This document shows positions 53,296 through 58,973 of a DNA stretch of 64,000 bases, in pieces. Position numbers and translations under genes: made by a program. The notes under the pieces were generated by a model that worked only from the letters and a program-made list of their open reading frames with translations, ran no database searches and was not told the origin of the DNA. Every line of letters starts with the position of its first letter. Positions within the stretch are counted from its first letter, which is position 1. Origin of the DNA: Blautia glucerasea (GTDB taxonomy: Bacteria > Bacillota > Clostridia > Lachnospirales > Lachnospiraceae); the NCBI RefSeq assembly GCF_013304385.1, contig NZ_JAAITU010000021.1, positions 1 to 64,000 on the forward strand. Direction: 5' to 3'.

Positions 53296-54582
53296 TTGAA
53301 GATCATTCTGGCAATCATTATTTTCAGTGCAATTGTATTGTTTCATGAGTTGGGACATTTTCTGCTGGCAAAGAAAAATGGGATCGTAGTTACAGAGTTT
53401 TCCCTGGGAATGGGGCCAAGGCTTGTAAGTACGGTAAAGGGAGGTACCAGGTATTCTCTAAAGCTGCTTCCTCTTGGCGGATCCTGTGCCATGCTGGGGG
53501 AGGATATGGAGGATGACCGGCCTGGCACTTTCAATGCGGCATCTGTCTGGGGACGGATCGCAGTGGTGGCAGCAGGTCCTGTTTTCAATTTTATTTTGGC
53601 ATTTGTACTTTCGGTGATCATGGTTTCTCTGGCAGGATATGACCCTGCAGAGGTACTGGATGTAAAGACTGAATCTTCAGCAGAGAAGGCAGGTCTTAAG
53701 ACAGGAGATGTGATCACGGAATATGAAGGATATACCATTGATCTATCCAGGGATCTGTACCTGTATACGTATTTTAATCCTGCACAGGAAGATAAGACCG
53801 TACACATGACGGTAGATCGTGACGGTCAGGAGATCAATCTGGCCTTTAAGCCGGATGTATCTGTCAGGTATCTGCTTGGCTTTAACAGAAGCGATGCTTC
53901 CTCTATGGAGGTGGAATCCCTGATCCAGGGAATGCCTTTGGAGGAAGCAGGTCTTCAGGCAGGGGATGTGATCACATCCATTAACGGGGTTAAAGTGGCA
54001 GACGGAGATGAATACCAGGCATATATTGATGAGCATCCGCTTTCCGACGAGCCTGTACAGATCACTTATGAGCGAAATGGACTGGAATATGATGCCACCA
54101 TTACGCCAAGGGAATACCGTACCCCGGATCTTGGATTTTCCTATAATGCAGGCTATCAGAAGACAAAAGGGATGGCTGTATTGAAATACAGTGCCTATGA
54201 AGTAAAATATCTGATCCGCTCTACCATTATGAGCCTGAAAGAGCTGGTCACCGGACACCTGGGAATCAAGGATCTGAGCGGACCAGTAGGTGTGGTGGAT
54301 GCCATCGGTACCACCTATGAACAAAGCAAAAAAGAAGGAACACTTGCAGTATGGGTAAACATGATCTATATGGCAATCTTTCTTTCTGCAAACCTGGGGG
54401 TTATGAACCTGCTTCCTATCCCTGCACTGGATGGAGGAAGGCTTATCTTCCTGGTGATTGAAGCAGTGCGGAAAAAGCCGGTGAACCGCCAGGTGGAAGG
54501 GATGGTTCATTTTGCCGGGCTGATGCTCCTTATGCTTTTGATGGTGGTAGTGATGTATAATGATCTTCTGAAGATTTTTTAA
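53296..54582 (+). CDS. rseP: Site-2 protease RseP/RasP
   Basis: The 428-aa zinc membrane protease has HELGH at 17-21 in the first membrane helix. It also has a PDZ-like central region (two internal similar stretches SAEKAGLKTGDVITEYEG and EEAGLQAGDVITSINGV, pointing to two PDZ domains) and NLLPIPALDGGR near 370-381 supplying the third metal ligand. It performs intramembrane cleavage of anti-sigma factors and signal-peptide remnants. TTG 53,296 is chosen by AGGTGG at 53,285-53,290 and because it directly follows the dxr stop. Its stop overlaps the convergent maturase stop. Confidence 0.95.
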   Translation: MKIILAIIIFSAIVLFHELGHFLLAKKNGIVVTEFSLGMGPRLVSTVKGGTRYSLKLLPLGGSCAMLGEDMEDDRPGTFNAASVWGRIAVVAAGPVFNFILAFVLSVIMVSLAGYDPAEVLDVKTESSAEKAGLKTGDVITEYEGYTIDLSRDLYLYTYFNPAQEDKTVHMTVDRDGQEINLAFKPDVSVRYLLGFNRSDASSMEVESLIQGMPLEEAGLQAGDVITSINGVKVADGDEYQAYIDEHPLSDEPVQITYERNGLEYDATITPREYRTPDLGFSYNAGYQKTKGMAVLKYSAYEVKYLIRSTIMSLKELVTGHLGIKDLSGPVGVVDAIGTTYEQSKKEGTLAVWVNMIYMAIFLSANLGVMNLLPIPALDGGRLIFLVIEAVRKKPVNRQVEGMVHFAGLMLLMLLMVVVMYNDLLKIF

Positions 54583-56369
54583 AGAAGGATAATATCTGAT
54601 ATGTTGGTCAGATATTGTTTTAAAGGCATTTCCTGGATGCCACGGGTACTCATTCCTTCAAATATTACATGTTTGTTTTTTATTCCATATACAAGCAGAT
54701 ATTCTATACCGCCGGCTTTCTTATCTCTTTTATGAACAGATATTCCAGGGATAGGAAAGTCTTCTGCGGTAACAGAAAGATCCATTTGGTAGGATTCTGC
54801 AGAAGGAATGCGCTGTCTCATTTTCTGAAGAACCAGGTTTCCTTCTGTAGTGGATTCTACAGGATTGATATCTTTGATCAACTCTTCATAGGATAGTGGT
54901 TTGCCAAGGACGGTTGACCATTTTACCAGTGCCCACAAAGCGGTATTTGTAGTTGTATAATTGGATATCTGAAAAGAGTATTCTACGAATTTTTGGTAGT
55001 TTTCTGGCTGTGTTCGTTTCAGATGCTCCAGAAAGGCGTAACTGAGTTTGTTCAGCCGTATGTTCAGTTGGCAGCTTTTGGAATTGGTGGTATACATATT
55101 GCCATACTGAAGATAGGAATTGGCGTAGCATTCGCCTCCACAGGCCTGGTGAAAATCACAGGCTTTACATGCTGGGATTTTGTCTTTAGGACGTTCCCAG
55201 TATTTTTTTACCAAATCCGGACGTACGCCTTCCGCCAGGCTCCCGATACAGAAATCTTTTGAACCCATCATAACGCTGCATGAATAGAATTTTCCGTCAG
55301 GACCGCAGATAATACGGTTTTTACCCATTTCACAGCGGAAAGGAGCGCTGCCGCCTTTCCGCAGATTTTGCGAGATCAGGATGCCGAAAACATCAGCACC
55401 ATTGATCAGCTTTATCAGATAGTCAAAATTCCCCTGCTTTAACTGGAACAATACATTTTCGCACAGTTTCTCGTAATGCAGCAAAAGCTCATCTATATCA
55501 AAGTGATCGAAATCGTAGGCAGATCCGGAATATTCCCGGATATAGCGCATGCTGATACAGTCTACATTTGGAAGCTGATAAAGTTCATCAAAGATTTCAT
55601 CCACCTTCTGGTTTAAAGGGGTGATAGTGGAAGCAATGCCGAATTTTTTGTTTTGAAACAATTCCAGACTCTTTTTTACATCCTGGAAAGTGCCTTTCCC
55701 ATTTTTGTATATCCGGTTATTGTCATTGGTTTCCTGTCCGCCATCAAGGCTTGTTCCAAGAAGAATCATGGATTCATTTTCAAAATAATCAGCCATTTCC
55801 CGAGTCATCAATGTGAGATTGGAGCAGAACATGATCTCGATGGCTTTTCCGATTTCCTGTCTCTTTTCTTTACAGTATTCTGTTACCTGACGAATCAAAT
55901 CGAACTTCAGCAAAGGCTCTCCGGAGCCGCTGAAATCAAAAATATATTTGCAGCCGTAGGGAGCATATTCGTAAAGCATATAATCAATAGCTTTTTTGAT
56001 GGTATCAAAGCTCAATTCCTGGTTGTCCAGATAATCAGAGTGTCCAAAGCAGTATTTACAGTTCAGGTTGCATTTCCTGGATGGATGAAAACACAAGGTA
56101 AACTGTCCAAGCTCCAGTTCATTTCTAATTTCTGATTCTGAATAGTGAGTCAGATTTCCAATGCGTTTTTCTATGGATGTTCTTGAAAAAACGGAGTATT
56201 CTTCCGGAGATTCTTTCTTCAAAAAGCAATCCAGTTCTTTCCATGTCCATTGATATTCACAATCTGTCATTGCACAATCAGGGCGCAGACCAAAGTAATA
56301 ATTGACAGCAGGCAGATAAAGGATTTTCTCATTCAGGGCTGTATAAATAATTGCTTTATATGTTTTCAT
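54579..56369 (-). CDS. Radical SAM/SPASM peptide maturase with C39-like tail
   Basis: The 596-aa protein has an N-terminal region (1-95), then a radical SAM domain with the cluster motif CNLNCKYC at 100-107, FSGSGEPLL and GTSLDGGQETND. The SPASM region contains CGPDGKFYSCSVM, CKACDFHQACGGECYANS and a later Cys. Residues ~470-596 look like a C39 peptidase fold without its catalytic residues (see findings). It should modify the precursor encoded upstream through C-C or thioether bonds. Start 56,369 is chosen by GGAGG upstream on the minus strand. It overlaps the transporter by 14 bases, so the two genes are translated together. Confidence 0.93.
   Translation of the reverse strand: MKTYKAIIYTALNEKILYLPAVNYYFGLRPDCAMTDCEYQWTWKELDCFLKKESPEEYSVFSRTSIEKRIGNLTHYSESEIRNELELGQFTLCFHPSRKCNLNCKYCFGHSDYLDNQELSFDTIKKAIDYMLYEYAPYGCKYIFDFSGSGEPLLKFDLIRQVTEYCKEKRQEIGKAIEIMFCSNLTLMTREMADYFENESMILLGTSLDGGQETNDNNRIYKNGKGTFQDVKKSLELFQNKKFGIASTITPLNQKVDEIFDELYQLPNVDCISMRYIREYSGSAYDFDHFDIDELLLHYEKLCENVLFQLKQGNFDYLIKLINGADVFGILISQNLRKGGSAPFRCEMGKNRIICGPDGKFYSCSVMMGSKDFCIGSLAEGVRPDLVKKYWERPKDKIPACKACDFHQACGGECYANSYLQYGNMYTTNSKSCQLNIRLNKLSYAFLEHLKRTQPENYQKFVEYSFQISNYTTTNTALWALVKWSTVLGKPLSYEELIKDINPVESTTEGNLVLQKMRQRIPSAESYQMDLSVTAEDFPIPGISVHKRDKKAGGIEYLLVYGIKNKHVIFEGMSTRGIQEMPLKQYLTNISDIILL
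54591..54621 (+). terminator. Terminator of rseP inside the convergent maturase gene
   Basis: Perfect 9-bp arms AATATCTGA (54,591-54,599) and TCAGATATT (54,608-54,616), then GTTTT. It lies within the last codons of the minus-strand maturase. Confidence 0.7.
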
Positions 56370-58557
56370 CGAATCCTCCAAGTAGATCCGGCTGTGTATG
56401 TGAATGATCCTGTACTTCATTCCACAGCCTGTAATAATAATATTTGTTTTGCAGAAGCTGAACATGTGTGCCTTCTTCCACCAGAGAACCATTATCAAAT
56501 ACATAGATCCAATCACAGTTTTTTACTGTGGTCAGCCTGTGAGCAATCTGGATCAATGTCATATGATTGGCACATTCTGACAGGGCACGTCCGATCATCT
56601 TTTCTGAAATATTGTCCAGGCTGCTTGTGGCTTCATCCATGATCAGAACTTGAGGCTTCCCAAGAAGTGCCCGGGCAATGGAAATCCGTTGTTTCTGACC
56701 GCCGGAAAGATTTTTTCCGTTTTCCTCAATCAGGGTTTCAAAGCCAAGAGGCAGAGAATTAGCCATTTCCTGTATGCCGCATAATTCGCAGATGTGGTTG
56801 AAATCACTTTCTTCAATATCCTCACGACCGTTTAGCAGATTTTCGCGAAGAGAACCATTTTGCAGGAAAACATCTTGGGAAAGATACAGAATCTTTTTAC
56901 GCAGTTCCGGTTTATAAATGGTGTTCATATCAACATCGTTGTAGAAAATAGTTTGATCAGATGTCTGAAAAAGACCTACCAGAAGCTTTGCCAGAGTTGT
57001 TTTTCCTGATCCGGAATTTCCGACAAAACCGATTTTTTGTCCCTGTGTTATGGTTAGTGATACATTTTTCAGAACGGGCTTCCTTGTACCGTAAGAGAAA
57101 GTAAGATCCTGAACGCGGATCCGTTTAAAATCAGGCAGTGGCTGTACATGCGCCGGTTTTTCTGCATCGTATTCACATCTGTAATCCAGAACTTCTCCAA
57201 CACGGTTTACGGATACAACGGCAGCCTGAATGGTAGGCTGCAGATTGATCAGATTTGTAACCGGCCCGATAAAATATCCTAACAGGGCATTAAAGGTGAT
57301 CAGTTCACCAATGGAAAGATTTCCCTTTAGCACGCCGGCTGTGCCTACCCACAGGATGGCAACACCTCCAAGGGAAGAAATGGTAGAGATCAGGGTGCTT
57401 TCACTAAGTGAGATCATTCCGATATGGAAATTTTTTTTCAGAAGATCCTTGTACATACCGCTTACTTTGTCAAAATGCCGTTTTTCATTATTAAAGGATT
57501 TTATGGTTTCTATGCCGTTTACACTTTCGATAAAGCGTGAAGTGACCTTTGCATTGTCGTCCAGGATCTGACGGTTCATTTTCATTAATGGCCCTGTATA
57601 TAGAAAAACAATCAGAGCATACACAGCCATCATAATGAAGGCCACCAGAAACATTTGAGGATTATATCTGCACAGGATCACTGCACCGGCAATTGCCATA
57701 AATGCATCTAAAAAAACACCTACGGTTGCTTCCGAAATCAGGCTTTGTACACTTCCAATGTCACTGAACCTGGATATGATATCTCCTGTATCCCGCATGG
57801 TGTAAAAACGCATGGGAAGAAGCAGTGTATGGTAATAATATCCGAGAGTCAGTTGGGTATCCAGTCGTTGTTCGTATTTGATCATGATAATACTTCGGAT
57901 AACACTTAAAAGAATCTGAGCCAAATAGAGAATAATAATGCCCAGGGAAACCTGCGTCAGATAGGAAAAAGACGCAGAAGGTACGATTTTGTCCATGATC
58001 GTCTGATAATAGTATGAGGTTATTACACCAATGCCTGTGCAGATCACAGACAGAAGGATAATCAGAAATATGGAGCTTTTTTGAGCCAGAATCAGGCGGC
58101 AAAAGCTTAATAGATTGTTTTTTTCATGATTACCTGTCACAGAATCATCGGACGGAGCAGTCAGAAGAAGAAAACCTGTCCAGTTTTTTAAAAATTGATC
58201 TTTTTTACATGTAAGGATTCCTTTTGCAGGATCACACAGCTTTATGCTGTCTTTTTTTACTTTCAGCACCACTACATAATGGAGAAGCCCATCATCGGTG
58301 ATCATATGAGCAACGGCTGGATAGGGAAGATCAGGTGTCAGTCCGTCCGGAGTCATGTTCAGAGCACGGTATTGGTAATGGTAATGGGCAAGTCCACGGA
58401 TAAGACCGGAGGCAGAGGTACCTTCCCGGTCTGTACCGCAAATATCTTTTAATTCGCTTATGGATATTTTAAGACCGTAATACTTGAAAATGCTAAGAAG
58501 ACAGGCTGGTCCACAGTCTGCCTTATCATTTTGTAATATTGGTGTGAAACGTTTCAT
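56356..58557 (-). CDS. C39 peptidase-containing ABC transporter (PCAT)
   Basis: The 733-aa protein has an N-terminal C39 Cys-protease domain with triad C15 (KADCGPAC), H93 (LLHYVVV) and D109 (LCDPAKG). A six-helix ABC membrane domain (~155-460) and a C-terminal ATPase (GNSGSGKTT, LSGGQKQR, DEATSSLD) follow. PCATs cut the leader after a Gly-Gly motif and export the core peptide. The precursor encoded upstream has NGG at 25-27, a suitable site. The gene lies downstream of the terminator hairpin at 58,595 in the same operon. Confidence 0.95.
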   Translation of the reverse strand: MKRFTPILQNDKADCGPACLLSIFKYYGLKISISELKDICGTDREGTSASGLIRGLAHYHYQYRALNMTPDGLTPDLPYPAVAHMITDDGLLHYVVVLKVKKDSIKLCDPAKGILTCKKDQFLKNWTGFLLLTAPSDDSVTGNHEKNNLLSFCRLILAQKSSIFLIILLSVICTGIGVITSYYYQTIMDKIVPSASFSYLTQVSLGIIILYLAQILLSVIRSIIMIKYEQRLDTQLTLGYYYHTLLLPMRFYTMRDTGDIISRFSDIGSVQSLISEATVGVFLDAFMAIAGAVILCRYNPQMFLVAFIMMAVYALIVFLYTGPLMKMNRQILDDNAKVTSRFIESVNGIETIKSFNNEKRHFDKVSGMYKDLLKKNFHIGMISLSESTLISTISSLGGVAILWVGTAGVLKGNLSIGELITFNALLGYFIGPVTNLINLQPTIQAAVVSVNRVGEVLDYRCEYDAEKPAHVQPLPDFKRIRVQDLTFSYGTRKPVLKNVSLTITQGQKIGFVGNSGSGKTTLAKLLVGLFQTSDQTIFYNDVDMNTIYKPELRKKILYLSQDVFLQNGSLRENLLNGREDIEESDFNHICELCGIQEMANSLPLGFETLIEENGKNLSGGQKQRISIARALLGKPQVLIMDEATSSLDNISEKMIGRALSECANHMTLIQIAHRLTTVKNCDWIYVFDNGSLVEEGTHVQLLQNKYYYYRLWNEVQDHSHTQPDLLGGFDENI

Positions 58558-58637: not shown

Positions 58638-58973
58638 TTAACTTGGCCATTTACCATATTTCTGATAGTATGCAGCGTCGGGTAATCTTGAATTGTCATT
58701 GGGGTTTTTACTTTGTGTTCCATAGTAATAGTACGGGTTTGAACTCCGGATGACCTGATTGTAGACTGCAAGTGGAGCTGTAGCTTCACCGACCCGACGG
58801 GAACACTGGCAATAACCGTATTTTCCACCAGCATAAGCATCTAAGGAAGCCAGTTCTCTTCCATTGCATATGAAACGAACATGCACACGGCATCCGCCGT
58901 TGACTTCGTCCAACTGATCAGCAGCTGCTTCTTTTGCGTTTACCTGGATCGCATCCAAATTAATCTTTTTCAT
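58638..58973 (-). CDS. Double-glycine RiPP precursor, 111 aa
   Basis: The leader (1-27) is MKKINLDAIQVNAKEAAADQ plus LDEVNGG. The 84-residue core has four Cys (28, 36, 55, 57), a Tyr/Asn/Pro-rich stretch with four consecutive Tyr, and a C-terminal KYGKW (K105-W109, a KxxxW spacing) before PS. A second Gly-Gly at 49-50 exists. AGGAGG lies nine bases before ATG 58,973; the upstream in-frame extension looks non-coding. Together with the C39 transporter and radical SAM maturase genes it forms a RiPP locus. The core is long for the known Cys-rich classes, and I could not place it in one. Confidence 0.82.
   Translation of the reverse strand: MKKINLDAIQVNAKEAAADQLDEVNGGCRVHVRFICNGRELASLDAYAGGKYGYCQCSRRVGEATAPLAVYNQVIRSSNPYYYYGTQSKNPNDNSRLPDAAYYQKYGKWPS

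Follow-up and report, generated by a model that had tools for sequence, protein, structure and literature searches.

A predicted dead C39-peptidase-like domain ends a radical SAM peptide maturase and may recognize its precursor

As excerpts of the published work describe, leaders are recognized within enzymes that build ribosomally synthesized and post-translationally modified peptides (RiPPs), radical S-adenosylmethionine (SAM) maturases included, by a PqqD-like domain, the RiPP recognition element (RRE) (PMC8326336), and in HlyB a C39-like domain that is dead as a peptidase is required for substrate recruitment (PMC6363468). In the C39 domain of PCAT1, leader residues -7 and -12 are packed into a hydrophobic knot together with A55 and I59; leader residue -4 is contacted by G135 of PCAT1 or by I137 of LahT, which pairs with V-4 (PMC6959990). 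A C39 domain has also been joined to a RiPP-modifying lanthipeptide synthetase in the engineered BovT C39-BovM fusion (PMC10885120). Here we analyse a 64,000-nt stretch of Blautia glucerasea contig NZ_JAAITU010000021.1 (the window, to whose positions all coordinates refer), in which three consecutive genes on the minus strand encode a precursor peptide, a C39 exporter and a radical SAM/SPASM peptide maturase of 596 amino acids (54579..56369; PF04055 E 2.7e-18). The maturase ends in a C39-peptidase-like domain that lacks the catalytic residues (residues 471-596, ~126 residues; 54582..54959, minus strand). In the literature searched, from which subscription journals were largely missing, we saw no radical SAM maturase bearing a C39-like domain. 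Both parts, a dead C39-like domain and a radical SAM maturase, are known, and it is their combination that appears to be new.

An earlier note on this DNA had proposed the C39 likeness from a by-eye comparison with the neighbouring exporter. Because neither Pfam (no hit) nor NCBIfam flags the window tail alone, relatives' tails were needed to check that match. We built a profile from four homologous tails, those of the window, Ruminococcus bromii, Pseudoruminococcus massiliensis and a Lachnospiraceae metagenome-assembled genome (MAG), and compared it with nine exporter C39 domains. Using hhalign, the two matched with a probability of 97.6% over 134 columns and 97.0% over 126 columns, nearly end to end, the E-values being ~1e-11 to 1e-10 if the database is taken as a single entry. 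Among the controls, none of 200 column-shuffles reached 50% (5.7% for the highest-scoring one) and the reversed tail gave 0.3%. Six segments of the maturase, with starts at columns 0-335, did not exceed 0.8%; one that half overlapped the tail reached 23.7%.

Other searches point the same way. The MAG tail is recognized by Pfam family PF03412 at E 3.1e-5, its 24.3 bits exceeding the cut-off of 22; the R. bromii and P. massiliensis tails have no Pfam hit at E<=10. Against 177,635 PDB sequences the tail profile returned four matches at E<=10, the top three being PCAT1 constructs (E 0.006, 0.034 and 0.096) and the fourth an unrelated protein (E 1.7). Among 391 genomes of the class, both non-self tail matches at E<1e-3 were C39 exporters, and the two weaker matches inspected were unrelated. 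A phylum-wide search of 398 genomes with the four-tail profile (E<=0.01) returned its own sequences and eight matches, four to exporter C39 domains and four to something else, short or partial. With an AlphaFold2 model of the tail (mean predicted local distance difference test score (pLDDT) 73.4, predicted template modelling score (pTM) 0.70) as the query, the top 16 Foldseek matches were all C39 domains, in chains from the three proteins PCAT1, ComA and HlyB, with a best E of 1.7e-4 at a template modelling (TM) score of 0.71, and ComA 5xe8 at a TM score of 0.73. Four of these routes to C39 homology (hhalign, Pfam, the PDB profile search and Foldseek), which all rest on the same four tail sequences, support the assignment of the tail as a C39-peptidase-like domain. 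There is no sign that each tail was derived from the exporter of its own cluster, as the window tail shares 23/132 positions with its own exporter C39 and 16-25 of 129-134 with the other ones.

The residues needed for cleavage are missing. In the joint alignment the catalytic Cys (PCAT1 C21) is occupied by T476 of the maturase (54942..54944, minus strand) and reads T/S/P/S in the four tails, given here and below in the order window, R. bromii, P. massiliensis and MAG. The catalytic His (PCAT1 H99) corresponds to E556 (54702..54704, minus strand; E/H/K/Q), and the catalytic Asp (PCAT1 D115) to G572 (54654..54656, minus strand; G/E/E/K), which lies beside E571. Thus, Cys and Asp are lost in all four tails and His in three, R. 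bromii having kept it; the conserved Gln of C39 is Asn in the window tail, which therefore lacks the whole Cys-His-Asp triad and Gln of an active C39 peptidase. The neighbouring exporter (733 amino acids; 56356..58557, minus strand; TIGR01193 at 619 bits, PF03412 E 2.3e-34) carries an intact C39 domain at its N-terminus, with C15, H93 and D109 aligned to the catalytic positions. The note's further claims, that the Cys-His spacing of about 80 is preserved and that the catalytic residues have gone, agree with these data, the spacing being 80 for the tail as against 78 for the exporter. As the residues for the normal reaction are complete in none of the four tails, the sequences support a catalytically dead domain.

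We consider it fairly probable that the tail is a pseudo-peptidase, incapable of proteolysis, that has been kept to grip the precursor, most likely via its double-Gly leader. The precursor of 111 amino acids (58638..58973, minus strand), which follows an AGGAGG upstream of its ATG and has no Pfam or NCBIfam family at E<=10, carries a leader of 27 residues (58973-58893) ending in Gly-Gly and a core beginning with Cys. In the proposed mechanism the leader would sit in the groove of the tail where active C39 domains bind it. Gripped without being cleaved, it would hold the core at the radical SAM/SPASM active site, possibly while an RRE-like N-terminal domain holds the conserved leader start (MKKIN-type). 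The modified precursor would then pass to the exporter, whose live C39 domain would cleave after Gly-Gly, and the product would be exported. We infer the binding itself, the leader rather than the core as ligand, and the order of modification and cleavage.

The positions that contact the leader offer indirect support for recognition of the substrate, or of its leader, by the tail. Two of the three examined are hydrophobic in all four tails: L514 (54828..54830, minus strand), at the I59 knot position of PCAT1, is L/L/L/M, and I593 (54591..54593, minus strand), at the position of PCAT1 G135 and LahT I137, is Ile throughout. Leader residue -4 is V, I, I and T in the four leaders. The leaders of the precursor open reading frames (ORFs) at 58638-58973 in the window and at L075 9824-10078 (R. 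bromii), L076 9847-10116 (P. massiliensis) and L004 14506-14661 also share an N-terminal segment, M[KS]K[IV][NS][LI], far from Gly-Gly. This segment falls outside the -4 to -12 stretch contacted by C39 domains in the published work consulted.

The tail-bearing architecture is rare, being present in four lineages among the matches listed. A contig scan with the window protein alone found no relative; with a two-sequence alignment, the tail was present in three of the best 80 of 330 relatives, from R. bromii 5AMG (L075, 43%), P. massiliensis (L076, 42%) and the MAG (L077, 33%; the same contig as G276:C67). The ten tail-less relatives that were aligned all end before the tail. Searched against 397 genomes of the family, the tail alone matched only its own genome and G276, and the full two-sequence profile matched 89 genomes at E<=1e-40, full length again only in these two. 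Three matches at E<=1e-40 among 64 genomes of the genus were the window's own and two that stop before the tail, and three at E<=1e-60 among 250 genomes of the R. bromii family were G846, G847 and one without a tail. A viral scan gave four weak relatives (residues 97-261, 96-233, 91-437 and 81-210), none of which reaches the tail; two further viral scans gave none, and scans of 145 and 10 plasmid records gave no place covering 80% of the query.

All four tail-bearing loci encode a double-Gly precursor and a C39 exporter, the precursor lying nearby, as expected for a RiPP maturase, in the window and likewise in the three relatives; none of the four shows a tail without such a precursor, the finding that the earlier note would have taken as refuting its proposal. 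Other ORFs occupy the ~3 kb that separate exporter and maturase in the MAG. A maturase match is present in 94 locus entries, of which 89 are tail-less and five carry the tail; these five come from four lineages, as one contig appears twice. A C39 ORF lies nearby in 4/4 tail-bearing against 1/89 tail-less entries (Fisher p 1.7e-6, nominal since entries are related), proximity being judged within flanking DNA of varying length from collections that may overlap.

Comparison of R. bromii and P. massiliensis suggests what the tail might respond to. Identity between their maturases is 98% over residues 1-90 (87/89) and 90% in the radical SAM region (180/200), 51% in the SPASM region (46/91) and 28% in the tail (33/117). 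Their exporters are 88% identical (633/720) and the exporter C39 domains 86% (116/135); their precursors are 34% identical (28/82) and the lipoproteins encoded in both loci 32% (133/411). By blastn, 91% DNA identity extends from inside AgrB to maturase codon ~298 and resumes only at the start of the exporter, similarity across the C-terminal half of the maturase, the precursor and the lipoprotein lying below detection. The two loci also share a VirD4-like gene, named by eye, at 87% protein identity. On the simplest reading of these sequences, the precursor would have been exchanged as one unit with the lipoprotein and the half of the maturase that recognizes the precursor, and the pattern points to a C-terminal half that recognizes something varying with the precursor. 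We lean, by a little, towards a broader picture in which a leader-peptidase fold reads the precursor twice, dead on the maturase and live on the exporter, and in which C-terminal half, precursor and lipoprotein would be swapped together as a specificity cassette, the catalytic and export parts on either side staying conserved.

Agr-type quorum-sensing genes stand beside the cluster in both loci (L075 5022-7984, L076 4594-7984; AgrB by PF04647, AgrC and AgrA named by resemblance). AgrC (43%) and AgrA (52%) diverge. So does AgrB over its first 50 residues (20/50 identical), after which its identity is 92-100% in each block of 50 residues. This is perhaps a second exchanged cassette.

Alternatively, the tail might couple modification to export without binding a leader, by docking the maturase on the exporter, where it could, for instance, take the place of one C39 domain. 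A C39 exporter nearby in 4/4 loci, and the overlap of the exporter and maturase genes in the window, would fit such docking. However, between R. bromii and P. massiliensis identity is 88% for the exporters and 28% for the tails: as the tail diverges with the precursor while the exporter is conserved, the comparison favours substrate recognition by the C-terminal half, and we regard docking as unlikely.

If the tail were a leftover of a gene fusion, now functionless and decaying, this would account for its being the least identical of six compared regions in four of six pairs; the exceptions are window-MAG, where linker 437-470 (6/34) is marginally lower, and P. massiliensis-MAG, where the N-terminal domain, the 291-345 stretch and the linker are lower. 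Yet the tail stays open over its full length in four lineages at identities down to 16%, S591 and I593 of the last strand are invariant, and the C39 fold is still recognized from the tail model, so that decay seems improbable. We give a similarly low chance to a tail that, instead of acting as a leader-affinity domain, clamps the core peptide or keeps the Gly-Gly site from being cut too early; its divergence together with the SPASM region and the core fits that role, but the leader-contact positions are partly kept. That the tail is still enzymatic through another nucleophile is very improbable, since the Asp-Ser kept around the lost Cys in two tails (Asp-Ser-Gly in the MAG; Asp-Ser-Ser, together with the His, in R. 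bromii) is set against T476/E556/G572 in the window, P/K/E in P. massiliensis and the loss of the catalytic Asp in all four.

Several observations weigh against a leader-gripping pseudo-peptidase. The tail model is of modest confidence. The PCAT1 A55 knot position is G/P/gap/P in the tails, and of the four leaders only two have a clearly hydrophobic residue at -7 (L, T, I, Q) and only two at -12 (A, I, T, M); the leader groove is thus kept in part, not in full. The co-divergence rests on a single pair of loci, in which maturase DNA identity drops stepwise (98% to codon ~80, ~75-88% to ~300, then 45-68%), and the tails are 16-30% identical pairwise, as relaxed constraint would also give. The exporter C39 domain serves both diverged leaders and is nonetheless 86% identical; thus, the tail's divergence could track the core or another partner. 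Finally, many tail-less relatives look, by eye, like SCIFF-type maturases, so the contrast of 4/4 with 1/89 partly reflects family membership.

The remainder of the maturase bears on the earlier note's proposal that the dead domain acts in place of an RRE. The CxxxCxxC cluster motif expected of a radical SAM enzyme is present, C100, C104 and C107 being invariant in 14 aligned sequences, as are C346, C364, C401, C404, C410, C414 and C433 of the SPASM-type auxiliary cluster region (residues 346-436; 55062..55334, minus strand). The top NCBIfam scores are to PapB-, QHNDH- and SCIFF-type maturases and lie below cut-off in all 25 listed of 63 matched; PapB (NF047865) scores 169.1 bits against a cut-off of 340, which does not admit the protein to the PapB type, and SCIFF 130 against 425. 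One guess at the chemistry, from the PapB resemblance and the Cys at core position 1, would be thioether formation. An AlphaFold2 model of the whole maturase has CteB at ranks 1-3 of its PDB matches (5wgg, E 6.3e-22), followed by anaerobic sulfatase-maturating enzymes, which are not known to have an RRE.

The N-terminal domain (residues 1-90; 56100..56369, minus strand) is a putative RRE. Its model runs through strands at 3-11, 14-19, 24-27 and 37-42 and then helices at 43-53, 55-61, 66-72 and 78-87, an RRE-like order (pLDDT by block 79-92 across residues 1-60, 44-60 across residues 61-90). CteB, the closest structural match, has an RRE according to excerpts of the published survey (PMC8326336). 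Pfam finds no RRE in this domain, and hhalign of the N-termini against nine tail-less maturases gave 1%, no better than shuffles (best 1.3%). Thus, of the earlier proposal the dead C39-like domain on the maturase stands and its substitution for the RRE is doubtful, given the RRE-like N-terminus and the top match to CteB; judged from the model, the dead domain may well be an addition to an RRE, not its replacement.

Related loci hold further arrangements. The R. bromii and P. massiliensis loci carry a solute-binding lipoprotein-like gene between precursor and exporter (L075 10198-11517, with PF01547; L076 10227-11567), possibly an immunity or binding protein. A tail-less maturase stands in a similar cluster at L176 2061-11679, with a Gly-Gly-Cys precursor, a solute-binding lipoprotein and a C39 exporter. 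This cluster also holds a BtrH_N-like protein (PF14399 E 5e-7), a carrier-like small ORF (by eye) and an AMP-binding protein at whose end a carrier domain scores below threshold, and an acylated RiPP is a possible product. At L046 1895-3367 and L047 3-1460, a radical SAM protein whose C-terminus, judged by eye, carries tetratricopeptide-like repeats adjoins PCAT1-like exporters.

If the tail does grip the leader, radical SAM RiPP enzymes would have a means of substrate recognition that works instead of the RRE or alongside it and is derived from the type of protease that removes leaders. This would account for how modification could come before cleavage though both activities read the same leader. 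Additionally, the C-terminal half and the precursor diverge together, which suggests that they form a modular unit of specificity, and the tail offers a handle for genome mining that Pfam and NCBIfam miss in the window.

Among described systems, the C39-like domain of HlyB-type exporters (PDB 3zua; Foldseek rank 16 for the window tail) likewise has the C39 fold without the catalytic Cys. That domain sits on an ATP-binding cassette exporter and binds unfolded type I substrate, whereas the window tail is the C-terminus of a radical SAM enzyme. The C39 domains of PCAT1 and ComA are the top sequence or structure matches of the tail, and LahT served for the -4 contact; all three are active Cys-His-Asp proteases, and the tail is without the triad. 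PapB and the ScfB/CteB-type ranthipeptide and SCIFF maturases share the radical SAM and SPASM core and are among the best NCBIfam and the best PDB matches, but the window maturase scores far below their cut-offs, and the aligned tail-less relatives end before the tail begins. The RRE is a winged helix, unlike the C39 fold of the tail, which moreover lies at the C-terminus. The BovT C39-BovM fusion is man-made and couples an active protease to a lanthipeptide synthetase, whereas here a predicted dead domain occurs naturally on a radical SAM maturase.

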